From Planctomycetaceae bacterium (GTDB lineage Bacteria; Planctomycetota; Planctomycetia; Pirellulales; Thermoguttaceae), in assembly GCA_031277105.1 (NCBI GenBank), contig JAISLW010000268.1:34698-98697 (forward strand): a stretch of 64,000 nt of DNA, written 5' to 3'. Shown here in pieces: positions 9,741 through 40,236 of this stretch. A program made the translations under genes and the position numbers. The stretch's first letter is position 1. Each line of letters begins with the position of its first letter. The notes beneath the pieces are model-generated. The model made no database searches. It was not told the DNA's origin and was given only the letters and a program-made list of their open reading frames with translations.

Positions 9741-10043
9741 TTATCGCCGTCTGTTTTTCACGGGAATTTTCTTTTCCTCTTCCTCATCGTTTTCGACTTT
9801 GTCTTTATCTTTGGAATTTTTGACTTTGTCGTCTTCTTCGTCTTCATCTTCGTTTTCAACGTCCTCGTCTTCATCTTCGTTTTTTACGTCTTCGTCTTCG
9901 TCGTCATTTTCAACATCTTTGTCTTTATCTTTGGAATTTTTGACTTTTTTGTTGAAAACGGACATTGAGCTGAATCCGAGCGAAGTATTAGCATCGCCTT
10001 GCAACGCCTCAAAAGCGCTAATATCGGCTAATTCTATAGACAT
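9741..10043 (-). CDS. Small tagged protein with acidic low-complexity tail
   Basis: 100 residues. Residues 6-31 (ADISAFEALQ ... SSMSVFN) match the N-terminal tag shared with the proteins at 12852, 13534, 14046 and 22777. The rest is an Asp/Glu/Lys repeat tract (KDKDKDVENDDEDEDV and similar) ending in a basic KNRRR. The DNA under the tract is repetitive and the opposite strand is open by chance. The shared tag with unrelated tails suggests an address or packaging signal; see findings. Confidence 0.7.
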   Translation of the reverse strand: MSIELADISAFEALQGDANTSLGFSSMSVFNKKVKNSKDKDKDVENDDEDEDVKNEDEDEDVENEDEDEEDDKVKNSKDKDKVENDEEEEKKIPVKNRRR

Positions 10044-12851: not shown

Positions 12852-13265
12852 CTAAAATGATTGTTCTTCAGTCTCCTTTGAAAGCGGAAGGTAATATGAT
12901 TTATACGAACCTGTAACGCCTAGTTTATTTAACCTGTCAAAAGTAGGTTTAAGTTTGCTTATAACGCTAGTTTTTTCATCCGTGTATTGATCGTTAAGTT
13001 TATTTTCGTTTTCATCCATTAAGTGTCTATAATGCGTAGCCATACGGTAAATATCATTTTCTAGTTTTTTTACTTCGTCAATGAGTTTAGATATTTCTTT
13101 CACATCCTTGCGAGATATTGTACTTTGTTGTCTCTGTACTTTCCAAGTAACATTATTGACCGCTCGACCATTCTGAAAAGCGCCCATTTGACTACAAAAC
13201 GAATCATTAGCCTGATTCTGTAACGATTCAAATATCGCTATATCCGCAACATTTTGATTACTCAT
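12852..13265 (-). CDS. Small tagged coiled-coil protein
   Basis: 137 residues from ATG 13265, chosen because AGGAGAAATTTT precedes it and because the protein then begins with the shared tag MSNQNVADIAIFESLQ ... SQMGAFQNG. A longer frame to 13334 lacks support. After the tag comes a charged coiled coil (about residues 50-110). It belongs to the five-member tagged set; the tails are unlike one another. Confidence 0.75.
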   Translation of the reverse strand: MSNQNVADIAIFESLQNQANDSFCSQMGAFQNGRAVNNVTWKVQRQQSTISRKDVKEISKLIDEVKKLENDIYRMATHYRHLMDENENKLNDQYTDEKTSVISKLKPTFDRLNKLGVTGSYKSYYLPLSKETEEQSF

Positions 13266-13449
13266 AAAATTTCTCCTACATTTTTTGTTTATTTGTTTAC
13301 TATTTATCCTTTGTTCAAAGGAACGAATTGACATAGTACAAAAAAAAATAAAATTGTGTCACACACAAAATAATCCCCAAAATAATCCCCAAAGTGATCA
13401 TTTTATTATGTCTACACAAATTATCAAAATAAGTCAAACTATGTTTTGA

Positions 13450-13533: not shown

Positions 13534-13980
13534 ATGAAAAACCAAAACATCGCAGATATTAGCGTATTCGAATCAATACAAACAGATCAACATACTAAAA
13601 CTGGTATGAGTCAAATGAACGTATTTAACAACAATTGTTCGATTAAAAATAGCGCTCTTTTGGATAAAGCCGCTATGGACGTTAAAAAATATCGTGCAAA
13701 AGTAGATGCGTTTATCAAATTAGGCAATGAAGTAGCAAAACGACGTGAAAAATTCGTGTCAAAAGAACGCGACGCTATTTTTAAGTATGAAACGTCTGAC
13801 GAATACATTAAAGAACGCATACGAGTTTTTGGCGTGCTTGGCGCAAACCCTAACGATCCTGAAGCATTAGCCGACGAAAAACAAAGTAACGAAATAGCAA
13901 CAGCCAGATACGAAGCAGAACAGAAACTTGCCGCTTTGGTAAAAAGCGATCACGCATTATTTTGGAGATATTCTTATTAA
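13534..13980 (+). CDS. Small tagged coiled-coil protein (plus strand)
   Basis: 148 residues. Residues 1-35 are the shared tag (MKNQNIADISVFESIQ ... SQMNVFNNN), followed by CSIKNSALLDKA and a charged coiled coil. It shares ANPNDPEALADEKQ with the next gene, so these two are tandem paralogs. GGAG lies 8 bases before ATG. Upstream is TTGACA ... TATTAT at 13450-13475. It is one of three clearly plus-strand genes in the window, all tagged proteins. Confidence 0.8.
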   Translation: MKNQNIADISVFESIQTDQHTKTGMSQMNVFNNNCSIKNSALLDKAAMDVKKYRAKVDAFIKLGNEVAKRREKFVSKERDAIFKYETSDEYIKERIRVFGVLGANPNDPEALADEKQSNEIATARYEAEQKLAALVKSDHALFWRYSY

Positions 13981-14045: not shown

Positions 14046-14504
14046 ATGAAAAATCAAAACGTTGCCGATATTTCGGTATTTGAAAATTTACAAAACAACA
14101 CTAACAATTCTTTTGCCAGTCAAATGAACGTATTTAACGGCAATTGTTCAATTGAAAATAGCGCTATCTTTGACAAAGCCGAATCGTTAGTTAAAAAATT
14201 TGTCGCAGACATTGACTTACTTGTAAAAGAAGGTACAGAATTGGTAAAACTCCGAAATTCAGTCATAAGAATGCGACCTAAACGCAAAGATCAACGAGCA
14301 ATCGGAGACATATTAGATAAGGAACAAAAACGAATTACACAAGCGTTAAAAGAAAACCCTAACGACCCTGAAGCGTTAGCCGACCAAAAACAAGCCCTAT
14401 CTATACAAAAGGAATTTAACGCCAGCGACAGGGATATGTTTAATTTTATAACAACTAAACCTAATAAAGAAGTATTTCTGGACTCCATTTATCAATATTT
14501 TTAA
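14046..14504 (+). CDS. Small tagged coiled-coil protein (plus strand), tandem paralog
   Basis: 152 residues: tag MKNQNVADISVFENLQ ... SQMNVFNGN, then CSIENSAIFDKAESLVKKF and a coiled coil containing ENPNDPEALADQKQ. A ribosome-binding site AAAGGAAAC precedes ATG. It follows the previous tagged gene by 65 bases and ends at a strong bidirectional terminator. Confidence 0.8.
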   Translation: MKNQNVADISVFENLQNNTNNSFASQMNVFNGNCSIENSAIFDKAESLVKKFVADIDLLVKEGTELVKLRNSVIRMRPKRKDQRAIGDILDKEQKRITQALKENPNDPEALADQKQALSIQKEFNASDRDMFNFITTKPNKEVFLDSIYQYF

Positions 14505-14585: not shown

Positions 14586-15242
14586 TTATTTATCTTTTTT
14601 GACTTTTGCTCTTGATGTTCCTTTTGGCACAGCCCACGCTCTGCCGTATTCCGCATCTTTATACAATTTAGAGTAACCTGTAATATGTTTCAACTTTATT
14701 AATTCTTCCGGCTGCATTCCTAATTCGTTACAAATATCAGCGTCTGATTTGCCGTTTTTCAACATTTCAAAAACCATATTCGACATACCTTTGACCGAAT
14801 GCGTTCCTCTCGCTCTGTTATGTCTTACAGTTGCAGCCATCCGCTCGTTTATATTCTTGTCCAACACGACTACAGGCAATAATCCAGCAGAAATATCCTT
14901 AATATCTTCCCGCGTTTTCATTGTAAAATAACGATGGAAACCATCTATTATTACAAATTTATTCGTTTTATCATCGTAAACTGACACCGTTGGTTGCGTA
15001 TAACCGTCGGCTTTAATCGACGTGTACAACAAACCCATCTCAATCGGCGCTACCGCATTCGGATTGTAATCATTCGCTTGAACCCGATCCACAGGCACAT
15101 ATTGAACACAACCTACCGGATGCGGAATCCCACTTACTTCATGGACTACTTTACGCACGTCATTTAATTTCAAATTCCGTTCAACCGTATCCAAACCCTC
15201 GACAAATTTTTCAATAACCGATTTGACATCATCAATAGTCAT
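14586..15242 (-). CDS. ParB/Srx-fold protein (IbrB-like)
   Basis: 218 residues with a ParB/sulfiredoxin core at about 50-140: VDRVQANDYNPN, MGLLYTSIKADGYTQPTVSV, VIIDGFHRYFTM, and VRHNRARGTHSVKGMSN. ParB-like proteins of this type pair with PAPS-reductase-like proteins (the IbrA/IbrB arrangement), and such a partner lies two genes upstream in the same operon. The fold binds or hydrolyses nucleotides in related proteins. A role in DNA modification is inference from the cluster. Confidence 0.75.
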   Translation of the reverse strand: MTIDDVKSVIEKFVEGLDTVERNLKLNDVRKVVHEVSGIPHPVGCVQYVPVDRVQANDYNPNAVAPIEMGLLYTSIKADGYTQPTVSVYDDKTNKFVIIDGFHRYFTMKTREDIKDISAGLLPVVVLDKNINERMAATVRHNRARGTHSVKGMSNMVFEMLKNGKSDADICNELGMQPEELIKLKHITGYSKLYKDAEYGRAWAVPKGTSRAKVKKDK

Positions 15243-15264
15243 ACGTTAATCTCCTCAAAAATAA

Positions 15265-15948
15265 TTATTTTTTTGCTTTATTACGCGTAGATTTACAAAT
15301 AACATCCCACCCTTTAGCGTACAATAAATCATGTTCGCCTATGGCGTTAAAGAACGCTCGCTTGCAACCTTTACGAATCCTGTCATGCAACTCGACAATA
15401 AAATAATTGACCGAATTAACCCAACTCGCTGAATTTTCAAACACCTCTATTTCCGATCCTTCTATATCACATTTCAGAATATCAACACGTTGCATGTTAA
15501 ATTGTTCCTTAACAGCATCAATCGTAATGCCAACAACATCAAAATCATCGTCAATCGCTTCTGTTACTTGAAAGGCGTACTTGTTCTTATTGTCATCCAA
15601 AGGCGCTATTTTTAATTTAACATCAGATTTCCACAAGCCGCATTGAATACAACATATATTTGGATACATTGCCGTATTTATTTTTAGCACGTTGTAATTC
15701 GACGTTTCAGGTTCAATTGCTACTATTTTTGCATTAGGAAATCGATTAGCAAACCAGAGCGTCCTTATCCCGATATTAGCGCCAGCGTCGATTATCGTTT
15801 CAACGCTATCAAATTGAACCGACCCCATTTTATTTTGTGTTACATCTGCGTTAACATAAACGTCAGACGTATTCGGTCGGACGTAATAAGGGTATCGAAA
15901 CAAAGCGTGCGTCTTGCGTTTCAAGACTGTACCGATTGATTTTTCCAT
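15265..15948 (-). CDS. FkbM-family methyltransferase
   Basis: 227 residues from ATG 15948 (a GTG sits one codon earlier). SAM-binding motif I is IIDAGANIGIRTLWFANRFP, followed by IVAIEPETSNYNVLKIN and VDILKCDIEGSEIEVFENS, the FkbM pattern. FkbM enzymes O-methylate sugars or small molecules. It lies between the IbrB-like and PAPS-reductase-like genes, so its substrate may be a sugar or modified base made by the cluster (inference). Confidence 0.8.
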   Translation of the reverse strand: MEKSIGTVLKRKTHALFRYPYYVRPNTSDVYVNADVTQNKMGSVQFDSVETIIDAGANIGIRTLWFANRFPNAKIVAIEPETSNYNVLKINTAMYPNICCIQCGLWKSDVKLKIAPLDDNKNKYAFQVTEAIDDDFDVVGITIDAVKEQFNMQRVDILKCDIEGSEIEVFENSASWVNSVNYFIVELHDRIRKGCKRAFFNAIGEHDLLYAKGWDVICKSTRNKAKK

Positions 15949-15952
15949 CACG

Positions 15953-17065
15953 TTACGTTTTTGTTTGTTGCTCCTTCTTTTTTAAGATCATACTATGCGT
16001 TGCGTGAAACATGTCAACTTTTACACCCCAAACGTCAACTAAAATAACAGATTTAATCTGCGTCTTAATTGCGTCTAATTCTGCTTCCGTTCCATAATAT
16101 CTATCCAATTTAGCACACGTTTTACGCATTGCTTCTCTATCTTGCGGCTCTACCAAATTATCAATTAAATAATCTTTGTATTCTACCCAACTGCTGAACA
16201 TATACGGCAATTTATCAGGACAACACATAGAATCTTCTTTTAGTACGCGACATGTATTAGCGCCAGATAACCTGCTAGTCAACCTTGCCCACGTATCAGG
16301 CTCAATTTCGGCTACTTTCAATAACGTAGATAACGCACAATCATGACACACCGATGAAACGCGCATAGCACGCGTACTAAAACCAACAGAATAAAAATAA
16401 TCATATAACGGATTGTACTCAATATTATTGTCGTAAATATATTTCCATACGTCGGTCGTTTTCCAATCATATATTGGGTAAAATCTATAAACTTCTTTGT
16501 CTTTTTTATCGACTAGTATAGTTCCGTTTTTGCCTTTATACGCTACGCTGTTGCAAACCATTTTGTACCTTGTAGGCGATTCGTCCGCTCGCACGCCTGC
16601 AAACACTACGCCCCGTTGTCCCATACACCGCAAAATACACGTATCCATCGCCGCATAAAAATTATCAAGTTCAATCGAACCTATATCCTTGATACTAATC
16701 GGGTCTTTCGGATGAACCCATTCGTTTTCTATCGCTGGATCCCAACAATAAATATAACGGTCAAACGTCGATGAATTATTTGACAAATGAAACGGTACTT
16801 GATGCCAACACGGTTTAACGTCGGGATGATACATAACTTTGCGTATATGGTTAATCGTACTATCCCATTCGGCTTCTTGATCTAGAAAAAATGTTTTTAA
16901 CGGTAATCTATTTCGCCGCTTCGCTTCTTGCATGACCAAGTGATGAACTACCGATGAATCCTTGCCCCCCGAAACGTTCACCATTACATCGTCAAAATCA
17001 TCGAAAGCGTCCGAAATCCGCTTTTGCGCCGCTTCCAACACATTTTGTTTCAAATATAATTTCAT
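15953..17065 (-). CDS. PAPS-reductase-like PP-loop protein (IbrA-like)
   Basis: 370 residues. The ATP-pyrophosphatase PP-loop is VNVSGGKDSSVVHHL at about 30-45, followed by TFFLDQEAEWDST, the GVRADESPTR block and the FYPIYDWKTTDVWKYI block. All are typical of PAPS reductase and IbrA-type proteins. Extra cysteines (SSVCHDCAL; CCPDK) could bind metal or an Fe-S cluster. It overlaps the upstream methyltransferase by 4 bases (ATGA), so the genes are translationally coupled. It may transfer sulfur or adenylate a substrate, as DndC-type relatives do; not demonstrated. Confidence 0.8.
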   Translation of the reverse strand: MKLYLKQNVLEAAQKRISDAFDDFDDVMVNVSGGKDSSVVHHLVMQEAKRRNRLPLKTFFLDQEAEWDSTINHIRKVMYHPDVKPCWHQVPFHLSNNSSTFDRYIYCWDPAIENEWVHPKDPISIKDIGSIELDNFYAAMDTCILRCMGQRGVVFAGVRADESPTRYKMVCNSVAYKGKNGTILVDKKDKEVYRFYPIYDWKTTDVWKYIYDNNIEYNPLYDYFYSVGFSTRAMRVSSVCHDCALSTLLKVAEIEPDTWARLTSRLSGANTCRVLKEDSMCCPDKLPYMFSSWVEYKDYLIDNLVEPQDREAMRKTCAKLDRYYGTEAELDAIKTQIKSVILVDVWGVKVDMFHATHSMILKKKEQQTKT

Positions 17066-17841
17066 AGCGCTTTTTGACCCCGTTCAACTGAATAATTCCC
17101 AAATTTAATATATGAATCTTTTCTGCACACAACTAATTCAGGACTAATCGTTCCCAAATGAACCGCTGGAAAATAACCATGCGTGTAATACATCAAAAAA
17201 TATTTACCACCAGGCTTCAATAAATCCATCAATTTTGAATTCGACATTTCCAAATAACCAGGCGTAATATACGACGGCGTACCGTAATCTGCAAAAATAA
17301 AATCAAATTGCTTGTCCGTATAAAACGATTCAAACGACGCAACACAAAATTCCTTGTCAGGATATAAACGTTTTGCCTCTTTTACCATCGCAGCCGACGG
17401 ATCAATTCCGATATAATTGTTGAATAATTGCGAAAACCTGCCTGTCGCACATCCAACTTCCAACACAAAACCATCACCCGAGTACATCTCTTTCATAACA
17501 GTCCCGACTAACTCGTCTTCCTGTAAATATTGCGGGTAACAATAAACGCCGTCATAACAATTTGTAATCTCGTCATAAGCCGACACGTCATTCAACGATC
17601 TGCACAACCCGTCTATATCGTCAAACCAATACCGATACTCGTTGACATCAAAACAACGCGAAATATCCCCGTTAGGATAACCGTGTTTTTCCAAAAGCGA
17701 TTTTAAGTTTTCTTCTACATGCGATTGTACCCGTCGCGTACAATCTACACGTTCTACGTTATTAACTGAATCGCCCCATTTAAGCGACAATAACGATGTT
17801 GCCAAATACTTAAAAGTTGACCAACCCGTATAACGATTCAT
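17062..17841 (-). CDS. Class I SAM-dependent methyltransferase
   Basis: 259 residues. Motif I is VLEVGCATGRFSQLFNNYIG at about 128-147, then IDPSAAMVKEAKRLYP and a motif IV-like FDFIFADYG, then LLKPGGKYFLMYYTHG. The N-terminal 120 residues are not recognised. It sits in the cluster between the PAPS-reductase-like gene (4-base overlap) and a two-domain putative glycosyltransferase. Confidence 0.75.
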   Translation of the reverse strand: MNRYTGWSTFKYLATSLLSLKWGDSVNNVERVDCTRRVQSHVEENLKSLLEKHGYPNGDISRCFDVNEYRYWFDDIDGLCRSLNDVSAYDEITNCYDGVYCYPQYLQEDELVGTVMKEMYSGDGFVLEVGCATGRFSQLFNNYIGIDPSAAMVKEAKRLYPDKEFCVASFESFYTDKQFDFIFADYGTPSYITPGYLEMSNSKLMDLLKPGGKYFLMYYTHGYFPAVHLGTISPELVVCRKDSYIKFGNYSVERGQKAL

Positions 17842-17850
17842 TTTTAACTC

Positions 17851-18846
17851 CTATCTGTAAATTTTATTTTCATCGCCTATCAAAGAACGATTTATAAGAT
17901 TTAACGAGTAATACGTCCAATACCTGTGATCGCCCGCTCTGCAATACACAAACGGCGCCGTATAATACAACTCAATATAACCGTTAAGCAACGTCCACTT
18001 CGCAGCCCGAAATAAATCAGTCTTGTATTGACTCTCTTCCGCATCTTCTTTTACTACCGCGTACTCATGCGGCGCTGTTTTCGCATACGTCCTAGCAAAA
18101 CGCCACTTCGCATTTTCAACAAATTCCAAAAACTCTGCCTGCGTCATCATCGGTTGCAACGGTTGCGGCAACTCAAACGGATCGTCAAATATACCAAACC
18201 AACCTTTACTAGCATACTCGCGACGTATCGCTTCAAATCCAATCTTATTACTTATAATCAACCGCTTCTCATCTACAAAATCAGGACAAATTAAATCACT
18301 GTCCCTGTAATCCGCTACGCCGCGTCTGCCGGCAGTTTTGGCAATTGATCCCGTATCAACACAATTTTTCCAACCGTACTTCAACACTTCCGCAGCAAAC
18401 GCTACATCGTCTAATTTATATCGCGGCTCATACGGCATCCTGCCAATCATCCGCTGAACTAACGGATTCAATACAAAACCGCCGCCAATTCGCATTACGC
18501 CTGACTTGACTATTCCGTCCTTGTCCGTTAAATTGTCTGCCTTGTCCGCTACTGCAACTATGCCAACGCCAGGTTCAGCGCTACGCAACAACGCAGAATC
18601 AAAATCAAAATCATCCGTAAATTGCAAGTTATCAGGAACAAGTACAATAGTCCGCTTGTCGTCATAATATTGACGAATAGACTCCAGCCGCTGTACATAA
18701 TGCGGCTCCTGACTATGCACAATCGCAAGTTTATACTTGTCCTTATGCTTCCAATGATAAAACGTATACAAAAAACGACGTATCACCGAACACCGCGAAG
18801 CAGACCAATTCGTATGCAAAACCAATAATTGTTTCTCATTACTCAT
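17851..18846 (-). CDS. Two-domain protein: GT-A-like N-terminus and PHEY/WTYY C-terminal domain
   Basis: 331 residues. The N-terminal 170 residues (LLVLHTNWSASRCSVIRRFL, VDTGSIAKTAGRRG) look like a GT-A nucleotide-sugar enzyme related to the next gene. The last 75 residues (PHEYAVVKEDAE ... GDHRYWTYYSLNLINRS) match a short domain of unknown function that I recall from phage and bacterial proteins, with PHEY and YWTM-type ends. The pair of domains in one chain within a sugar/ParB cluster suggests nucleic-acid or sugar decoration. Tentative. Confidence 0.55.
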   Translation of the reverse strand: MSNEKQLLVLHTNWSASRCSVIRRFLYTFYHWKHKDKYKLAIVHSQEPHYVQRLESIRQYYDDKRTIVLVPDNLQFTDDFDFDSALLRSAEPGVGIVAVADKADNLTDKDGIVKSGVMRIGGGFVLNPLVQRMIGRMPYEPRYKLDDVAFAAEVLKYGWKNCVDTGSIAKTAGRRGVADYRDSDLICPDFVDEKRLIISNKIGFEAIRREYASKGWFGIFDDPFELPQPLQPMMTQAEFLEFVENAKWRFARTYAKTAPHEYAVVKEDAEESQYKTDLFRAAKWTLLNGYIELYYTAPFVYCRAGDHRYWTYYSLNLINRSLIGDENKIYR

Positions 18847-18929
18847 ATACTATTTTTCTACCTAAATATGTTAAATTGTTTTAGACCTAGCCACAAAACA
18901 CATATTTTGTAACTTTTCAATAATAATAG

Positions 18930-18955
18930 TATGCCTTCTAAAAAACGAAAATTAA
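18930..18955 (-). promoter_or_regulatory. P2-type promoter
   Basis: Minus strand: TTGTCTTTAATTTT, then GGCATACTAT. Directed at the gene starting at 18846 and thus at the modification cluster. Confidence 0.65.
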
Positions 18956-18964
18956 AGACAATTT

Positions 18965-19756
18965 CTATTTTTTTTGCTCTAAATACAATTTCATCAACAT
19001 TTGACTGCGCGCTTTACGATGCATTTCTTTGGCAAGCGGTTTAACATCTGCATCAAGCGGAATATGCGTTTCACCTTTAACCGTTTTACGATAATTCAAA
19101 TAATCAGCGTACAATAACCCCAATGAATTTATATTGACCGATTTATACCAATCGTGCATCCCGCCTTTGGATAACGTATGATGCACCGATAAACTGCCGC
19201 TGTAACGATAATTCGTATAACCTTGCAAATAAGAAGTCAAACTCCAACCTTCGTCAAAAACAGTTTCGACCAACGGCAACTTCCGCATCAATTCGGCTAC
19301 CGTATCGTTATACAACATACCGCCGCCTTGATACAACAAAATCTGCGGATCAAATCTATGAACCATATTCGCCGATTTTTGAACTACTTGCTCATACGTC
19401 CGCGCCCAATTAGTCAATACAAAACCAACCCCATAATTCTGGACAATCATTGCAACAACAGGATCAAACCGCGTCCATTGCGTCAACTCTATATCATCGT
19501 CCAAATTACAATACACGTCATAAGACTTGACCTTTTGCAATAGCATTATCCGCGCCTTATTGCAACCCAACCGAATCGGCTCAACAAAAAATTCATCAAC
19601 TAAATCTTTACGAACTTGATCAACATTATTCAAATAATCTTGATACAACAACGCTATCGACCAATCTTTGTATTGCGATTCCCGTATCTGATTAAGTAAC
19701 GCGTTAAGATACTCAAACCTATCACTTACCGAAATAATAATAAAACATTTACGCAT
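18965..19756 (-). CDS. GT-A family glycosyltransferase
   Basis: 263 residues. It starts with CFIIISVSDRFEYLNALLNQ, has a DxD-type metal site in VYCNLDDDIELTQW at about 80-93, then GVGFVLTNWARTY and GGGMLYNDTVAELMRKL. This is the organisation of GT2-like enzymes that use nucleotide sugars and a divalent metal. It is probably part of the same cluster as the methyltransferases and ParB-like genes; target unknown (DNA base, capsid or host surface sugar). Confidence 0.7.
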   Translation of the reverse strand: MRKCFIIISVSDRFEYLNALLNQIRESQYKDWSIALLYQDYLNNVDQVRKDLVDEFFVEPIRLGCNKARIMLLQKVKSYDVYCNLDDDIELTQWTRFDPVVAMIVQNYGVGFVLTNWARTYEQVVQKSANMVHRFDPQILLYQGGGMLYNDTVAELMRKLPLVETVFDEGWSLTSYLQGYTNYRYSGSLSVHHTLSKGGMHDWYKSVNINSLGLLYADYLNYRKTVKGETHIPLDADVKPLAKEMHRKARSQMLMKLYLEQKK

Positions 19757-19830
19757 TATTCAACTATTTTCGTTTGATTTTACTTTTATAGATTTACAAC
19801 AAAACGTCACAACAAAATCCTACGATTCAG

Positions 19831-20940
19831 TCAAACGTCCTTAACTGCAATACTGAATTCGCACGTACATTTTGGGCAAATGAAATCTCGGTATTGTTCG
19901 GAATTATTTCTGTTTTTTGTCATTGTAGCGATGTCGTCTTGTATGCCTTGCGACGCTTTATTTACATCGTCGTCTGTTACTTGTTGCACGTCAAACGTAG
20001 GATCGTATTTCACTTTAAACATACTTTCAATATCGCTTAAATCTATGCCAGGCAACGCCAATTCGCCATAATCTATATCCAAGTCCTTGATAAAATCCAA
20101 TAAACCCTGTTTAGAAAATGTACCATTCACACTGTTTATTTCGATCAATTTTTTACGGGCTTCCTTTTCATTGTCAGCCTCGACTATAACTACAGGTAAA
20201 TCTGGAATAACATATCCCCGCCGCTCCAACTCTTTCAACGCCAATATACGACCATGACCATCCAAACAATTATTCACCCCGCCGTTTTTCCACACAAATA
20301 ACGGAAACGAAAAACCATTCAACAATATACTAGATACCAAGTGATCAACTTGTTTCTGATTACGCTTTTTCAAACCGCGTTGAAACGACTCTATATCAGC
20401 CAACGCCAAAACCGTATCAGTTTGACAAGTAATTGTTACACGTTGCCGCTGCTTGCCAAACGTTACACTGTTGCCATGCAAATCAACTAGATTAGGACAA
20501 ACGTTAAAATATTTGATGTTAGATTTCGCCAAAAATTTGCCTGCCCATTGCGAAGCCGTACCTGAACCTTTAACAGCGCTACTGTTGCCCCTAATATATT
20601 GGATCAATTTCGCAATGACCAAATTAGGCATATAAAAACAAACGCCATTCCAATCTATACCACTACGCACCCATTGCGAACCTAACCGTAAATCAGAATC
20701 ATTCTCACTGTAAAATTGGATTACAGACTCTTTGTTGCGTTCTATAATCCATTCAATTTCTTGACAAAATTGATCGCATAACGAAACGTCCGACCACAAA
20801 AAAACGCAATCATCACGCCCCGCCAAAATCAAACAATCCAATAAAACCTCAACGTCCGTTACACACTCTATACCGCCAAATTCAACAGACGGTATCGATT
20901 TACGCAAATATTCCGACTCGCCCTGAACTATATATCGCAT
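19831..20940 (-). CDS. Glycosyltransferase-like domain fused to ParB-like domain with C-terminal zinc ribbon
   Basis: 369 residues in three parts. Residues about 1-170 resemble phage GT25-like glycosyltransferases (VFLWSDVSLC, VIQFYSENDSDLRLGSQWV, VCFYMPNLVIAKLIQYI, WAGKFLAKSNIKYFNVCPNL). Residues about 175-310 are a ParB/Srx domain (VDHLVSSILLNGFSFPLFVW, NNCLDGHGRILALKELERRG). The tail has FICPKCTCEF, a half zinc ribbon. The ParB part is about half identical to the next protein. A direct fusion ties the sugar and ParB activities to one pathway. Confidence 0.75.
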   Translation of the reverse strand: MRYIVQGESEYLRKSIPSVEFGGIECVTDVEVLLDCLILAGRDDCVFLWSDVSLCDQFCQEIEWIIERNKESVIQFYSENDSDLRLGSQWVRSGIDWNGVCFYMPNLVIAKLIQYIRGNSSAVKGSGTASQWAGKFLAKSNIKYFNVCPNLVDLHGNSVTFGKQRQRVTITCQTDTVLALADIESFQRGLKKRNQKQVDHLVSSILLNGFSFPLFVWKNGGVNNCLDGHGRILALKELERRGYVIPDLPVVIVEADNEKEARKKLIEINSVNGTFSKQGLLDFIKDLDIDYGELALPGIDLSDIESMFKVKYDPTFDVQQVTDDDVNKASQGIQDDIATMTKNRNNSEQYRDFICPKCTCEFSIAVKDV

Positions 20941-21480
20941 CTAAACCTCCACTTCAAATGAATATTGACACTCTGGACAAACAACCGTTACTTTATTATC
21001 GCTTTGTTCCTCGTTTTTTTCCGGCTCTTCCAACCCGATTTGACCGCGTAATTTAGCGTCAATCTTTTCCAAATCTAAACCAGGTATGTTGAAATCCAAT
21101 AAATTCAAATCTAGATCAACTACAAATTGCGAAAAAATCTCTTCGACAAAATCGCCGTTGAGATTATTTACTTCAATTAGTTTCCTTCGCGCGTCCTGTT
21201 CAGTTTCAGCGTCAATATAAACTACAGGAATTTTGGGTATCGTATAACCCCGCCGCTCCATCAATTGCAAAGCTTGCAACCGACCATGACCGTCAAGACA
21301 ATTATTTTCGCCTTTATGTTTCCATATAAAAATCGGAAACGAAAAACCATGCTGATTTATACTCGTAATAATATGTTCAATATTACGCTCGTCATGCGAT
21401 TTAACATCACCCTGAAAATCAACAATTTTCCGATAATCTAATACGTCTTTCACCGCACACGTTATTTTTATTGTTTCCAT
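20941..21480 (-). CDS. ParB/Srx-fold protein with C-terminal zinc ribbon
   Basis: 179 residues. ParB core: IEHIITSINQHGFSFPIFIW, NNCLDGHGRLQALQLMERRG, DARRKLIEVNNLNGDF. The tail VVCPECQYSFEVEV carries a CxxC. It is a free-standing paralog of the ParB part of the fused neighbour, to which it is directly adjacent. The DGHGR motif is the nucleotide-contacting element of this family. It is the third ParB-like protein of the cluster. Confidence 0.8.
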   Translation of the reverse strand: METIKITCAVKDVLDYRKIVDFQGDVKSHDERNIEHIITSINQHGFSFPIFIWKHKGENNCLDGHGRLQALQLMERRGYTIPKIPVVYIDAETEQDARRKLIEVNNLNGDFVEEIFSQFVVDLDLNLLDFNIPGLDLEKIDAKLRGQIGLEEPEKNEEQSDNKVTVVCPECQYSFEVEV

Positions 21481-21501: not shown

Positions 21502-22308
21502 TTAAACATCTATTACATTATTATCTGACCCTTTACTTTTTGATTTGCGTAACAATTGAAGCAATTGGTCTTTTTCTTCTATCGATAACCCAGTCATATC
21601 AAAATCAGATTGATTTCCGACGTTGATGTTGACCATCGGCTGCTTTTCATCAAAACCTAACGATCTGCCTAACGTCTTGCAAATAAAAATCTGGGCGCTC
21701 GTATCGCCTTCGTGCATCGCTTTGGCAATTAACGCTAACCCTACGCGTTCAGCCGTATGCGATTGGACTTCTCGTACCCTTTCGGCGAATTCAGGATCGG
21801 AAGCCATCCAACGTTTTACTCTGCGCTCGTTCAAACCCAAATGTTGCGCCGTTATACCGATAAACGCCGATTTTTCCAACGTCGCCAAAAACTTTTCTTT
21901 CAATTCCGCTATGTCTTCCAACGTAACATCCGACATTACCCACCTCTTATCCTTGTGCATATTCGCATCATATTCCCGATATACTTTGCCCAACCGTTCA
22001 ATACGCCGCCTGTTACGCACACGCTTTTTTGCCAAATAAGCTTTATAACGTACAGGATCATTTTGTTTCATTTTGGCTTTGTTTTGGCGATCCCATTCCA
22101 ATTTCGCTTTATGATACTCTTGGTATTTTTTGGGATTCGCTTTAAGATTGGCGTATTCTTTTTTGCGTTGTTTTTTTCGCAATTCTTGATACGCAGCCCA
22201 TCGAACCGGATCATTCCGCAACCGTTCCCGATACAACCGCATCTTGTTCCGGCTCGCTTCCCGCTTCAATTGCTGATCTGTCAATTTCAATTCGCCCGAC
22301 TTTTCCAT
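21502..22308 (-). CDS. Terminase-small-subunit-like DNA-binding protein
   Basis: 268 residues. The N-terminal 110 are very basic with repeated DPVRW/Y-KAY-type helices. Residues about 135-215 form a helix-turn-helix and following helix (ITAQHLGLNERRVKRWMASD, FAERVREVQSHTAERVGLAL, IAKAMHEGDTSAQIFICKTL) of the type found in phage terminase small subunits. The C-terminal LSIEEKDQLLQLLRK is typical too. No large terminase is adjacent, so a general DNA-binding role remains possible. It overlaps the small upstream gene by about 100 bases, which is unusual. Confidence 0.6.
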   Translation of the reverse strand: MEKSGELKLTDQQLKREASRNKMRLYRERLRNDPVRWAAYQELRKKQRKKEYANLKANPKKYQEYHKAKLEWDRQNKAKMKQNDPVRYKAYLAKKRVRNRRRIERLGKVYREYDANMHKDKRWVMSDVTLEDIAELKEKFLATLEKSAFIGITAQHLGLNERRVKRWMASDPEFAERVREVQSHTAERVGLALIAKAMHEGDTSAQIFICKTLGRSLGFDEKQPMVNINVGNQSDFDMTGLSIEEKDQLLQLLRKSKSKGSDNNVIDV

Positions 22309-22720: not shown

Positions 22721-22776
22721 ATTTTTGCGAGTAATTAACCAAAAACATTTATTTAATTTTGTACGGAAGGATAAAA

Positions 22777-23133
22777 ATGAAAAATCAAAACATAGCGGAT
22801 ATTTCCGCATTCGAATCAATCCAAACAAACGGTCAAACCCAAAATACTACAAATTCAATGGCGATTTTCAACGATATTGCAGACGCTAAAAAAGCAGCAG
22901 AACGCGTTACAAAAATCGCACAACAAGAAATTAACATACAAACAGAAGCCGACAACGCAATACAAGCGCTAACAGACGTATTACGCAAAGAACACAAAAG
23001 AATTTACGAAATCCAAGATAACGCAGAACGCGAAAAAGAAAAACAACAACTCAAATCCATCATCGCCACAATGAAAACGCCAAAAATCTACGATAAATCA
23101 CTGTTCATAAAAGGAATCGAAACGATACGATAA
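22777..23133 (+). CDS. Small tagged coiled-coil protein (plus strand)
   Basis: 118 residues from ATG 22777, chosen because GGAAGGATAAAA precedes it and the protein then begins with the shared tag MKNQNIADISAFESIQ ... NSMAIFND. After the tag is a charged coiled coil (DAKKAAERVTKIAQQEINIQ). Fifth member of the tagged set and 8 kb from the others. It ends at a strong bidirectional terminator. Confidence 0.75.
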   Translation: MKNQNIADISAFESIQTNGQTQNTTNSMAIFNDIADAKKAAERVTKIAQQEINIQTEADNAIQALTDVLRKEHKRIYEIQDNAEREKEKQQLKSIIATMKTPKIYDKSLFIKGIETIR

Positions 23134-23226: not shown

Positions 23227-24264
23227 TTAAAGCAACGACAAAAACTCCTTGATGTCTAAAAAGTAACTCGGATACGCCTCGCATATATACTGTACGTCTT
23301 TGACCGAGACCAGAACAATATCAACATCACCACTGACATAATCTGGATTCTGTTCACGTGATTTATAAAACGCCAACGCCAAATCTAACGTGTCAGAATT
23401 AACGCCAAAAATATGAATTGTATGACGCTTAAAATCAACTTCCAAAATACAATAATCATAATTTGTACCAGACGATTCACGAACCGTTATAGGCAACGAA
23501 GACAACTTTGCAATAAATGAATCTTTATTTAAGGCTGTCAATTTATTGTTTATTGTAGTTTCATCGTCGTTTGCGTAAATTTCTACAACAGGCATATTTT
23601 CCTTGACAGCAAACAGAGCGCTAACACACTTGAAAAAATCTGACCAGCCGTCAGCGTCATCCGTTTTACTTACCTTTAATCTCTTGCCGTAAACCTTATC
23701 AACCGTTTCGATAGCCATCGCCCATAAATGTTGATAACGAGTCCGAATCTGTAACTCAAACCGCAAACCGTCAAATTCGGGTCGTTCCGAATTAACATTT
23801 TTCAAAACAAAATGAACAGAACGATAACCCGTTTTACACGGATGCATAACTAAATCACGAACCCGCTCAATGACAAAACAATCTGATAAAAATTCTTTTT
23901 GACGCTCAATAAAATCAGTAAACAACCGATTATTGTCTGATTGCGAATTCGTAGGCGTAAGAACATAACGCATTCCGACTATATCTTGTATTTGCGATAA
24001 TTTTAAGCGGGGAATTCGTTTTAATTTATCAATAATGGCTATTGCACGTTTTGCTCTGGAAGACACGGTTATATCAAAACCGCAACCGTTAGAATTAACT
24101 ATATCAGCAGGATTACACGACGTTTGGGGAATAAAATCAAACAAAAAATGAGTATGCAATTCCCGCCAAGAGTTCAATACGGTCAAAGCGTCCTCATTTT
24201 TTGGATCACTAATAAGCGTATCGCCCGCATCATCTATTTCTTTTAGATTGTATTCATTAATCAT
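23227..24264 (-). CDS. RelA/SpoT-domain protein (putative alarmone synthetase)
   Basis: 345 residues. The RelA/SpoT synthetase core spans about 70-190: SSRAKRAIAIIDKLKRIP, IQDIVGMRYVLTP, PCKTGYRSVHFVLKN, FELQIRTRYQHLWAMAIETV. There is no HD hydrolase, TGS or ACT domain, so it is a small-alarmone-synthetase type with a C-terminal extension (about 200-345) of unknown fold. Stand-alone synthetases of this type include toxins in anti-phage systems such as CapRel. It is directly followed upstream by RloB-like and AAA ATPase genes, suggesting one functional island. Confidence 0.75.
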   Translation of the reverse strand: MINEYNLKEIDDAGDTLISDPKNEDALTVLNSWRELHTHFLFDFIPQTSCNPADIVNSNGCGFDITVSSRAKRAIAIIDKLKRIPRLKLSQIQDIVGMRYVLTPTNSQSDNNRLFTDFIERQKEFLSDCFVIERVRDLVMHPCKTGYRSVHFVLKNVNSERPEFDGLRFELQIRTRYQHLWAMAIETVDKVYGKRLKVSKTDDADGWSDFFKCVSALFAVKENMPVVEIYANDDETTINNKLTALNKDSFIAKLSSLPITVRESSGTNYDYCILEVDFKRHTIHIFGVNSDTLDLALAFYKSREQNPDYVSGDVDIVLVSVKDVQYICEAYPSYFLDIKEFLSLL

Positions 24265-24280
24265 TAAATATATCTCCTAA

Positions 24281-25084
24281 CTAATCCCGTATCTTTAATT
24301 TATTTATAATTTTTTTGTATGATTTGTTTTTTATTTTATTTTTTGCACTCATTTTGTCCAATTCATCTTTAATGAAAGGCAACAGTTGTTCTGCTAATCG
24401 AAACATATTGGTAGAAAATAGCTTTGGTATGCCGTTGTTGTCTTCTTCGTAGTTAGATTTAGAATTGACGATTGCGGTTTCAATATCGAAAATGGCGTAT
24501 CGCGGATCAATACCGCCTTTGACTTTACGGTTAAGATAGGTCTTAAACTCTTGGCTTATTTTAAGAGCATTTTCAGGAATGCTAAAGTCTTTGGGCTTCT
24601 GATTGAATTTTCCGTAATAAAGCCAAATTTCCAAACAAGAATTACTAACTATCAAAGAGATATTTAACTCTTCGCATTTCGGTTTAATTCTCAACAAATC
24701 ATTCATAAAATGATCTACGTCAGACACGATGAAAATATTATCCGGTTCGTCGTCTTGACTTGATTGGTATCGTCTTTGTTCGTCTTCGGCTTTTTGTAAC
24801 AAGCCGTCTGGATGCAATTGATTGGGATCAGCGACAAAACTAATTTTTATTCTGCGGAATTCGTCCTGTCTTTCAATAATTTTGAAATACTTCTTTTCGC
24901 GTACTTCACCGCCGGAAATAATTACAAAAAAAGTTTTAGGCGATTTCACGCCAGATACTTTTTTGTGATTTACGTCCACAACATTAACGGGCATAACCGA
25001 AAGTTCTGAAACGACAACATCCGTTTTTTGTGCTTCCTGCCCTAATACAAGTTTTTCAGAAATTGGTTTTGTGTAACTTCTCAT
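24281..25084 (-). CDS. RloB-like (Toprim-fold) abortive-infection protein
   Basis: 267 residues. RloB marks: FFVIISGGEVREKKYFKIIE, then IFIVSDVDHFMNDLL with the D-x-D, then LIVSNSCLEIWLYYGKFN, the N-S/P-C-x-E-x-W block. RloB pairs with an AAA ATPase in the Rlo loci and in the AbiL system; here the ATPase gene overlaps by 4 bases. The N-terminal 45 residues are less conserved. Toprim relatives cleave or bind nucleic acid; the activity here is untested. Confidence 0.8.
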   Translation of the reverse strand: MRSYTKPISEKLVLGQEAQKTDVVVSELSVMPVNVVDVNHKKVSGVKSPKTFFVIISGGEVREKKYFKIIERQDEFRRIKISFVADPNQLHPDGLLQKAEDEQRRYQSSQDDEPDNIFIVSDVDHFMNDLLRIKPKCEELNISLIVSNSCLEIWLYYGKFNQKPKDFSIPENALKISQEFKTYLNRKVKGGIDPRYAIFDIETAIVNSKSNYEEDNNGIPKLFSTNMFRLAEQLLPFIKDELDKMSAKNKIKNKSYKKIINKLKIRD

Positions 25085-26397
25085 TCTTTAATACAGTCTA
25101 TACTGATTTCGTCAATTACAGGCGTAGCGCCATAACGACCTTCTAAATAACCATTTTCGATATTCGACGTATTATGCAACTTAAAATCGTTCAACGAGTA
25201 CAACTTCGTGTTTCCTTCAAATTTTTCTGTAAACCAAATTTCATCCGGTCGAACTAATTCATGACGATTTAACAAATGCGTTACATGCGTAGTGAAAATA
25301 AGTTGTCCCCTAGCATTGTTGTTAGCGTAAAAACGCAAGAGTTCAAACATTAAACGAGGATGTAGACTACTTTCAATTTCGTCAATAAAAATAACTTTCC
25401 CTTCCTGTATTACACTCCATAACGCAGGAATTAGAGTTAAAAGTCGCACAGTTCCATCCGATTGAGCGGATATTTTCATTGCTTTATGATAACCACATTG
25501 TCCTACTTGGTCGAACAATAATTCCTGTACCGTTTTTTTACCTTCATGAATTGTAACATTCAATACGTTACGATTATTTTGAAGTTGTGCAATATCACTA
25601 TTTTCCGACAATGGATTACTATTGATGATTTGATTTAACTCTGTTGCATTTGTAGATTCCGTAATTAATTTTTCAAAAGGAATATCGTGGATTTTAATCT
25701 CATCAATACCAATTCCGATATTTCTAAAAAAATTATTTGCGAAACTTAAAATTTGCGGTTTTTGCGACAACAATTTTATAAGCATTGGAATAGTACTGTT
25801 TGCTAATATGACTTCAATTTTTTTGGAAAACCAATCGTAAACATGTTTGACTTTTTCACTCGCAAGAACAGGAAATTGTAAATTCAAGGGGATCAATGAA
25901 GATCGGGAATTCATGGAAAGTAATTTTTTAACAAGAGGTTCATTTTGAATTGACGGAGCAACAATACTTGTTCCTTTTCTTTCAAATATTAGTTCATCAT
26001 CTGTTTTTCCTACGCCTGATTTTGATAATTTTTCAAAAACTTCTTTTTTGCTGATTTCAACGTTATAAATGTAATATTCTTCTCGATGAAAAAATTCTAT
26101 CTCAAAAGATATTGTCTGCGATTTTTCTTTTGTAAGTTGGAAAATATAATCATTCCAAGTAATTGATTTCAAGAAATTTTTGCGTGTTACAAATTCACGC
26201 AAAAAGATAACAGCTTTGATAAAATTTGATTTGCCTGATCCATTAGCGCCGTAAATTGCGGTTTGTTTCAATACAGGTATTTCCATATTGTCATGTATAT
26301 GGAGTTGAAAACTTTTGTGTTCAATATTCGGAAACATATCAAACACAGTTTCTCCGTTAAACGATAGGAAGTTTTTTATCTTTAACCTTAGTAACAT
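25081..26397 (-). CDS. AAA15/RloA-like ATPase, partner of RloB
   Basis: 438 residues. LRLKIKNFLSFNGETVFDMF is the N-terminal ABC-type strand. Walker A is AIYGANGSGKSNFIKAVIFL at about 50. Signature and Walker B regions are QSDGTVRLLTLIPALW and VIFIDEIESSLHPRLMFELL, then IFTTHVTHLL. This matches RloA/AbiL-type ATPases. The stop overlaps the RloB start (ATGA), so the two are coupled. A solitary crRNA-like repeat lies in the 5' leader, only 10 bases before ATG. Confidence 0.85.
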   Translation of the reverse strand: MLLRLKIKNFLSFNGETVFDMFPNIEHKSFQLHIHDNMEIPVLKQTAIYGANGSGKSNFIKAVIFLREFVTRKNFLKSITWNDYIFQLTKEKSQTISFEIEFFHREEYYIYNVEISKKEVFEKLSKSGVGKTDDELIFERKGTSIVAPSIQNEPLVKKLLSMNSRSSLIPLNLQFPVLASEKVKHVYDWFSKKIEVILANSTIPMLIKLLSQKPQILSFANNFFRNIGIGIDEIKIHDIPFEKLITESTNATELNQIINSNPLSENSDIAQLQNNRNVLNVTIHEGKKTVQELLFDQVGQCGYHKAMKISAQSDGTVRLLTLIPALWSVIQEGKVIFIDEIESSLHPRLMFELLRFYANNNARGQLIFTTHVTHLLNRHELVRPDEIWFTEKFEGNTKLYSLNDFKLHNTSNIENGYLEGRYGATPVIDEISIDCIKE

Positions 26398-39696: not shown

Positions 39697-40236
39697 TTAG
39701 TCGTCGGTAAAACCTACATGTAAAAAAGCGCTGCCGATTACAGGTTGACCGTTTGCCGATTTAACAACTAACCAATAAGTACCTGCTGGAGTACATTCAT
39801 TTCCTGGCCAAATATAAAGGCTTTGGGACTCATAGTAATCCATATTGACTATATTTTTATTGCCGTCGTATATCTCAATTAAAATTTCAGGACTCGGTTG
39901 AAGATCGATTATCCAAAGTAGAGCCAAATGATCTGGATCAACAACTGTAATTGTAAATCTAGTATAGTAAGCGGCAACTCCGTCTAATAGTATCGGTTTC
40001 AATTCCGCATCGAAATGTGCAAAATCACGCCAAAATTCAGCCGTATCAAATTCGTCCGGTTCTGGTTCTGGCTCTGGTTCCGGCGTTGTTTGTAACCATC
40101 CTGTGTCAATTAACGCTTGTATCGTATCCGACTCTGTCATTACAGGATTATCAGTACGGTCAATATAACGCTTGACCTCGCGCAATATCACATCCGCATT
40201 TTCCCTATCTATATTTTTTTTTGTAGTTACACTCAT
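39697..40236 (-). CDS. Tail-related protein with PE-repeat linker
   Basis: 179 residues. The N-terminus (ADVILREVKRYIDRTDNP; TIQALIDTGWLQ) matches the helix plus LIDTG module of the tail proteins at 3772-5357. A TPEPEPEPEPD linker follows, then an all-beta C-terminal domain (about 75-179) with GTYWLVVKSANGQPV. A virion appendage located far from the other tail genes. Confidence 0.6.
   Translation of the reverse strand: MSVTTKKNIDRENADVILREVKRYIDRTDNPVMTESDTIQALIDTGWLQTTPEPEPEPEPDEFDTAEFWRDFAHFDAELKPILLDGVAAYYTRFTITVVDPDHLALLWIIDLQPSPEILIEIYDGNKNIVNMDYYESQSLYIWPGNECTPAGTYWLVVKSANGQPVIGSAFLHVGFTDD

Follow-up and report, generated by a model that had tools for sequence, protein, structure and literature searches.

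We analysed a window of 64,000 nucleotides (bases 34698-98697 of contig C529, a 171,649 bp piece of a draft genome) that carries the gene pair IbrA/IbrB within a run of nine collinear minus-strand genes. The contig belongs to a phage, as Pfam searches found an intein-bearing large terminase subunit (TerL), ThyX and an integrase; the phage looks temperate, and the right end of the contig, past the integrase, resembles host DNA when read by eye. The genes of the run follow the order TerS-like (terminase small subunit), ParB2, GT-ParB, GT, GT+DUFkw, DUFkw-type methyltransferase, IbrA, FkbM and IbrB, where GT stands for glycosyltransferase and the labels GT_a, GT_b, ParB2 and DUFkw were coined for this analysis. 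Their assignments come from library profile searches and from profiles that we built from the neighbour clusters of related loci (Table 1). An initial annotation, made from the sequence of the window alone, had recognised eight of these open reading frames (ORFs) between 14586 and 21480, all of which are present on the minus strand. Its description of a tightly packed group encoding three ParB-like domains, a single IbrA-like PP-loop enzyme, two methyltransferases (FkbM-type and class I) and two or three GT-like proteins agrees with the profile matches, which set the number of GT-like proteins at three, and with gaps of 0-118 nt and one overlap of 4 nt. The TerS-like gene extends the run by one gene upstream and, since the gene downstream of IbrB lies on the opposite strand, the run ends at IbrB. 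Promoter and terminator scans gave results at chance level. As argued below, this run is probably a cassette by which the phage hypermodifies its own DNA.

The evidence that carries this reading is the recurrence of the same gene families around IbrA/IbrB. With IbrA and IbrB as baits we gathered loci from collections of viral and cellular sequences and from a same-genus genome, 245 in addition to the window. IbrA and IbrB were on the same strand in all 228 loci holding both, with a spacing of -100 to 50 nt in 207 of them (710 nt in the window, with the FkbM gene in between). After dereplication at 95% IbrA identity to 177 loci, and counting in a stretch that reaches 4 kb upstream and 1 kb downstream, we found ParB2 in 96 loci, DUFkw in 61, GT_a in 42, the DUFkw-methyltransferase in 26 and GT_b in 10, together with GNAT (27), SpeD-like (12) and 2-oxoglutarate (2OG)-oxygenase-like (11) proteins and two MT-A70-like families (38 and 14); each family had 0 or 1 match in a control of 621 kb taken from these contigs at distances above 6 kb. 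At least one modifying-enzyme family occurred in 68 of the 70 viral loci having at least 3 kb upstream of IbrA. The strongest result came from reverse baiting, a test for bait bias that covers the commoner family members and partly the same contigs: among dereplicated loci with enough flank, IbrA or IbrB was within 5 kb of DUFkw in 31 of 32 and within 5 kb of GT_a in 40 of 41. The accessory families are thus close to obligate partners of IbrA/IbrB and, as they recur around the pair in unrelated phages, the run is more than a chance assemblage. The initial annotation had proposed a common pathway and had looked to linkage in relatives to decide the matter; the families are linked there and, together with the domain fusions described below, this reverse linkage indicates that the genes form one pathway.

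Cultured phages also possess these genes. Microbacterium phage Hendrix, whose host is M. foliorum NRRL B-24224, has most of the same parts. Its record, when read across its ends, contains matches to GT_a (5.8e-40), the DUFkw-methyltransferase (3e-16), IbrA (1e-101) and ParB2 (7.1e-41), together with genes annotated as an N-acyltransferase and as a ParB protein, the latter matching IbrB (tblastn 5e-58); two more genes separate ParB2 from TerL. Phage Rasputia carries IbrA along with three annotated GTs, an acetyltransferase and a methyltransferase.

Table 1 Genes and domains of the run, with their positions in the window and the profile matches or motifs that support them (aa, amino acids; SAM, S-adenosylmethionine; PAPS, 3'-phosphoadenosine 5'-phosphosulfate; AF2, AlphaFold2; pLDDT, predicted local distance difference test).
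Feature	Position	Strand	Support
TerS-like (terminase small subunit)	21502-22308	-	TerS_a 5.9e-12 at aa 134-232; phrog_4044 2.3e-5
ParB2-type ParB-like protein, C-terminal CPxC zinc-ribbon-like tail	20941-21480	-	ParB2 1.5e-23; phrog_620 4.8e-16
GT-ParB fusion: GT_a (aa 33-166) + ParB2 (aa 173-369)	19831-20940	-	GT_a 2.8e-18; ParB2 3.6e-38
Probable pseudo-GT domain of the GT-ParB fusion	20443-20940	-	8 of 12 family-conserved positions substituted
ParB2 domain of the GT-ParB fusion, DGHGR motif, CPKC tail	19834-20424	-	ParB2 3.6e-38; C-terminus phrog_498 1.8e-19
GT, LDDD and His motifs intact	18965-19756	-	GT_b 1.4e-100, nearly full length
Degenerate GT_b-like domain (aa 51-205) + DUFkw (aa 232-324)	17851-18846	-	GT_b 5.5e-6; DUFkw 2e-14
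DUFkw domain, ~90 aa	17875-18153	-	AF2 pLDDT 88.8
DUFkw-type N-terminus + class I SAM methyltransferase	17062-17841	-	DUF_MT 4.1e-70, aa 10-257; Methyltransf_25 3.1e-11
IbrA, PP-loop ATP pyrophosphatase-like, SGGKDS, part of DUF3440	15953-17065	-	phrog_2302 1.8e-83; PAPS_reduct 5.7e-22; DUF3440 1.5e-7
FkbM-type methyltransferase, between IbrA and IbrB	15265-15951	-	TIGR01444 2.9e-24
IbrB, ParB/sulfiredoxin-like, DGFHRY and RHNRARG motifs	14586-15242	-	phrog_2159 1.1e-66; conservation in 176 sequences

Several fusions join members of the cassette to each other. Besides the GT_a+ParB2 and GT_b+DUFkw fusions of the window, GT_b is fused to IbrA in one locus (L059:2854-4788, 644 aa) and GT_a to an MT-A70-like protein in another (L321:7177-8514). 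DUFkw is fused to five kinds of enzyme in different phages; besides GT_b, its partners are a class I methyltransferase (26 loci), SpeD-like proteins (L034, L037 and L072), SET (L054:8044-8754 and L094:2647-3378; Pfam SET 2.3e-9 for the former) and, as judged by sequence, GNAT (L039). Fusion to so many enzymes suggests that DUFkw is a common adaptor. Its fold was predicted with confidence (pLDDT 88.8). None of its 68 members matched Pfam, PHROGs or NCBIfam, a sequence search returned no convincing match (best E 0.035), and comparison with solved structures gave no clear hit (best Foldseek E 0.43, best VIA Z 4.0). As far as these searches indicate, DUFkw is an undescribed hub domain, with no clear solved relative, from which it does not follow that its fold is new. 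The two SET+DUFkw genes adjoin a SpeD-like gene.

The GT-ParB fusion singled out in the initial annotation is real: it is a single open frame of 369 codons that matches both the GT_a and the ParB2 profiles. When the two domains were folded separately, the N-terminal one adopted a predicted GT-A fold (AF2 pLDDT 88.6) similar to that of COLGALT1 (9evk_B; VIA Z 13.0, root-mean-square deviation 2.6 over 149 residues). Of the 12 positions that at least 85% of stand-alone GT_a proteins share, it has lost 8. Among these are the arginine following strand 1, residues D24 and D130, the first D of the DD pair and the final histidine, although this histidine could be shifted by one position. Among complete relatives the next worst lacks 3 of the 12, and one apparently truncated relative also lacks 8. 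The GT half is, therefore, probably a pseudo-enzyme and, with its GT domain degenerate, the GT-ParB protein probably glycosylates nothing; a pseudo-enzyme adaptor is the better interpretation of it. The GT part of the GT+DUFkw protein is probably a pseudo-enzyme as well, since in the GT_b alignment it shows PDN instead of DDD and its histidine is gone. The stand-alone GT, whose LDDDIEL and VHHTLSKGG segments align with the GT_b family, is the only one of the run to keep LDDD and the histidine and is probably its active GT. Two probably inactive GT domains, each joined to a module presumed to face the DNA, thus accompany a single active GT, an arrangement that suggests docking.

The search for further GT-ParB fusions that the initial annotation had called for yielded none. 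Whole-fusion searches found no close viral relatives and only ParB-domain matches among cultured phages and in 147 related genomes plus 392 of the phylum, no second GT_a+ParB2 fusion appeared among the GT_a-baited loci, and a search, not decisive, of genome G019 returned no match to the partner half. A truncated homologue from a genome of the same genus shares 69-70% identity with the ParB2 domain of the fusion. Thus, the GT-ParB fusion is known once; as no Pfam domain scored in it, a Pfam-based survey would miss it.

From gene content, domain fusions, linkage, and the conservation and loss of motifs, we infer that the run probably serves to hypermodify the phage's own DNA, as a variant of the ParB-terminase type of modification locus that had been predicted before; this degree of confidence applies to its being a DNA modification cassette. 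DNA, already suspected as the target in the initial annotation, is the most economical one and is supported by linkage. TerS and TerL are near most viral loci (76 and 84 of 110, respectively), one MT-A70-like family has DPPW in 34 of 39 members, and there are precedents in the literature. PMC6536676, citing Iyer 2013, places modification genes between ParB and TerL and has ParB as the proposed director of modification during packaging; CaiB provides an example of such a ParB-terminase modification locus (PMC9302106). DpdB, a ParB-like ATPase, participates in preQ0 insertion into DNA (PMC12839542), and ParB folds bind ATP, CTP or GTP, some of the binders being methyltransferase or acetyltransferase fusions (PMC12704722). 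Beside its TerL (L017:315-2174), the contig of the window carries a second modification locus, with ParB and a DAM-like/GNAT fusion (PF22555, PF22559; L017:2197-4268).

Several observations weigh against this interpretation. The TerL gene of the contig (C529:315-2174, locus L017) is ~47 kb from the run. Neither a dedicated pyrimidine hydroxymethylase nor a TET/JBP protein was seen among the contig ORFs read by eye, a search that was not exhaustive. Flavobacterium phage FCL-2 and phage 1H carry IbrA/IbrB without the profiled accessory families, and most cellular IbrA/IbrB loci lack these families too (7 of 65 have any); since such pairs exist, IbrA/IbrB must do something useful alone. To our knowledge, the only effect reported for IbrA/IbrB is the activation of prophage eib genes. 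In Alphaproteobacteria, chromosomal IbrA/IbrB pairs (L194, L209 and other cellular loci) often follow a gene of ~415 aa, perhaps helicase-like, and come without the phage enzymes, which indicates that the pair has another setting.

Such solitary pairs would suit a gene-regulatory or counter-defence module in which IbrA/IbrB change nucleotide pools or the expression of host or prophage genes, with the transferases working to the same end. IbrA/IbrB are indeed annotated as coactivators of prophage gene expression (PMC4490671), and the nucleotide binding of ParB-fold proteins mentioned above would be compatible with this role. However, a regulatory module leaves unexplained the near-obligate linkage with GT, GNAT, methyltransferase, SET and MT-A70-like genes beside terminase, and we consider it unlikely.

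The sequence of IbrA provided clues about the chemistry involved. SGGKDS is present in 164 of 173 IbrA sequences, none of the 173 has the ECG[LIV]H motif of CysH-type PAPS reductases, and no alignment column has a cysteine in more than 45% of them. IbrA thus has the ATP-pyrophosphatase SGGxDS loop without a catalytic cysteine, as in TilS-like amine-attaching enzymes. Among solved structures, profile comparison places it nearest to CysD and FAD synthase, both of which transfer AMP. In PP-loop enzymes without such cysteines, for example TilS, a base carbonyl is adenylated and an amine then attacks.

These features bear on the sulphur-based modification envisaged in the initial annotation, namely a phosphorothioate or a thiolated base made with IbrA acting like DndC, SspD or BrxP. 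IbrA shares the PP-loop PAPS-reductase fold with them and matches the BrxP (5e-10) and DndC (3e-8) profiles, and DndB is also classed among ParB-superfamily proteins (PMC10853773). However, DndC holds an Fe-S cluster by three cysteines and has an additional pair of cysteines, a Cys dyad (PMC10853773), and part of BrxP is rich in Cys (PMC12839542), whereas IbrA has neither a conserved cysteine nor ECG[LIV]H, which makes a sulphur relay unlikely. Cysteine desulfurase, DndD and DndE are, moreover, absent from the run, so that a sulphur-based modification appears very unlikely.

TilS-type PP-loop chemistry would also be at home in RNA modification, with tRNA as the likeliest substrate, as when lysidine or agmatidine is made; phrog_4752, named tRNA methyltransferase, is matched by the class I methyltransferases, and tRNA genes are found beside the cassette in phage Hendrix. 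Nevertheless, tRNA genes were not seen as a general neighbour in the loci read, and the linkage with terminase and ParB and the DPPW adenine-methyltransferase-like neighbours point to DNA, making an RNA target highly improbable. It is equally improbable that the GT and methyltransferase genes decorate the virion, as the initial annotation had also considered, or host surface glycans, with IbrA/IbrB as bystanders: surface-glycan loci often contain FkbM and GT2-like genes, and the structure of the GT_a domain resembles that of COLGALT1, a protein O-glycosyltransferase, but GT_a and DUFkw loci are almost never without IbrA/IbrB, one GT is fused to IbrA (L059) and one to an MT-A70-like protein, and the genes that usually lie nearby are those for terminase, ParB and adenine-methyltransferase-like proteins.

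If the cassette does modify DNA, a working scheme can be proposed. The ParB-like proteins (IbrB and ParB2) would bind nucleotides and load the enzymes onto phage DNA around packaging. IbrA would adenylate the base with ATP, after which a nucleophile would be attached, an amine being likelier than sulphur by comparison with TilS in lysidine synthesis. DUFkw would recognise the modified base and deliver the transferases, which vary between phages and would add or cap the group; in the window these would be the stand-alone GT, the class I methyltransferase and the FkbM methyltransferase, a role that GNAT, SET, MT-A70-like, 2OG-oxygenase-like or SpeD-like decarboxylase proteins may take elsewhere. 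The two pseudo-GT domains, on ParB2 and on DUFkw, would probably be docking parts for the active GT, and the purpose of the whole would be escape from host restriction.

SET enzymes usually methylate amines, so that SET+DUFkw would fit an amine-bearing base. Phage SpeD homologues are able to decarboxylate arginine or ornithine (PMC10407285). The SpeD-like partners with a readable motif (TSHI..H.WD) lack the proline marking true AdoMet decarboxylases, which fits a role as amine source in some phages. As this source occurs only in some phages, and the window has no SpeD-like gene, amine chemistry by IbrA, taken alone, is a possibility that we put forward with reserve. More doubtful still is the complete scheme in which IbrA/IbrB install an amino-acid- or polyamine-like side chain on the base by PP-loop adenylation and DUFkw is a shared reader delivering interchangeable glycosyl, acetyl and methyl (class I or SET) caps, with inactive GTs as docking parts, to give a phage-specific DNA chemistry.

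Annotations in many phages call IbrA/IbrB prophage coactivators or PAPS reductases, but no activity is known for them. Their linkage now permits a testable claim, that IbrA/IbrB are the core of a widespread and variable DNA-modification cassette, present in cultured phages. If true, the known hypermodifications of phage DNA would gain a further chemistry, a new recognition domain would be added, and the cassette would be a source of DNA-acting enzymes; it could also explain restriction-resistant phages.

Other features of these phages deserve mention. Just before the TerS-like gene there is a defence-like group (23227-26397) of neighbouring AAA_21 ATPase, RloB and RelA/SpoT-domain genes. A family of ~175 aa, encoded directly upstream of IbrA at L058:8279-8806 and in about 11 further cases, resembles 2OG-Fe(II) oxygenases in its motifs PLHxDxxYPR and DTHSPHQ but matched no Pfam or PHROG profile. 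Small ORFs that share an N-terminal motif like MNNNVADISLFESLQSGQHERMGISSLSVFN and have unrelated C-termini are scattered over the phage genome (14 on C529 in our scan), in the window at 9741-10043, 12852-13334 (by eye), 13534-13980, 14046-14504 and 22759-23133; this N-terminus is perhaps a sorting or capsid-targeting tag. Another N-terminus, MSVTTKKNIDRENAD..LREVKRYIDR, is common to window 39697-40236, L017:14615-15187 and L018:9291-10319; the C-termini of these genes differ, as in interchangeable tail or surface proteins.

The cassette shares traits with several known systems. Like DndC, SspD and BrxP, it has a PP-loop protein with a PAPS-reductase-like fold and, as with DndB, a ParB-fold partner, but its IbrA has no conserved cysteines and the run has no sulphur-donor gene. 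Fusions of the ParB-CTPase fold to methyltransferase or acetyltransferase are known, phages included, from a 2025 PNAS survey (PMC12704722), the text of which mentions no glycosyltransferase fusion. In the Dpd system (DpdA/DpdB) a ParB-like ATPase also works with a base-modifying enzyme on DNA (PMC12839542), whereas no TGT-like DpdA was seen in the run, where the activating enzyme would be of the PP-loop type. IbrA/IbrB of E. coli, coactivators of prophage expression, are a homologous pair with the PP-loop protein followed by the ParB/sulfiredoxin (Srx) protein; in phages a set of modifying enzymes is added to it, and in the window FkbM splits the pair. In the ParB-TLS locus (Iyer 2013, as described in PMC6536676), finally, ParB-like genes and DNA-modifying enzymes, sometimes ParB-fused, lie in overlapping order next to terminase. 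The window has ParB-like genes and modifying enzymes in one run, but this adjoins a TerS-like gene instead of TerL, for which reason we class it as a variant of that locus, one whose core is the IbrA (PP-loop) and IbrB pair accompanied by DUFkw-fused transferases.

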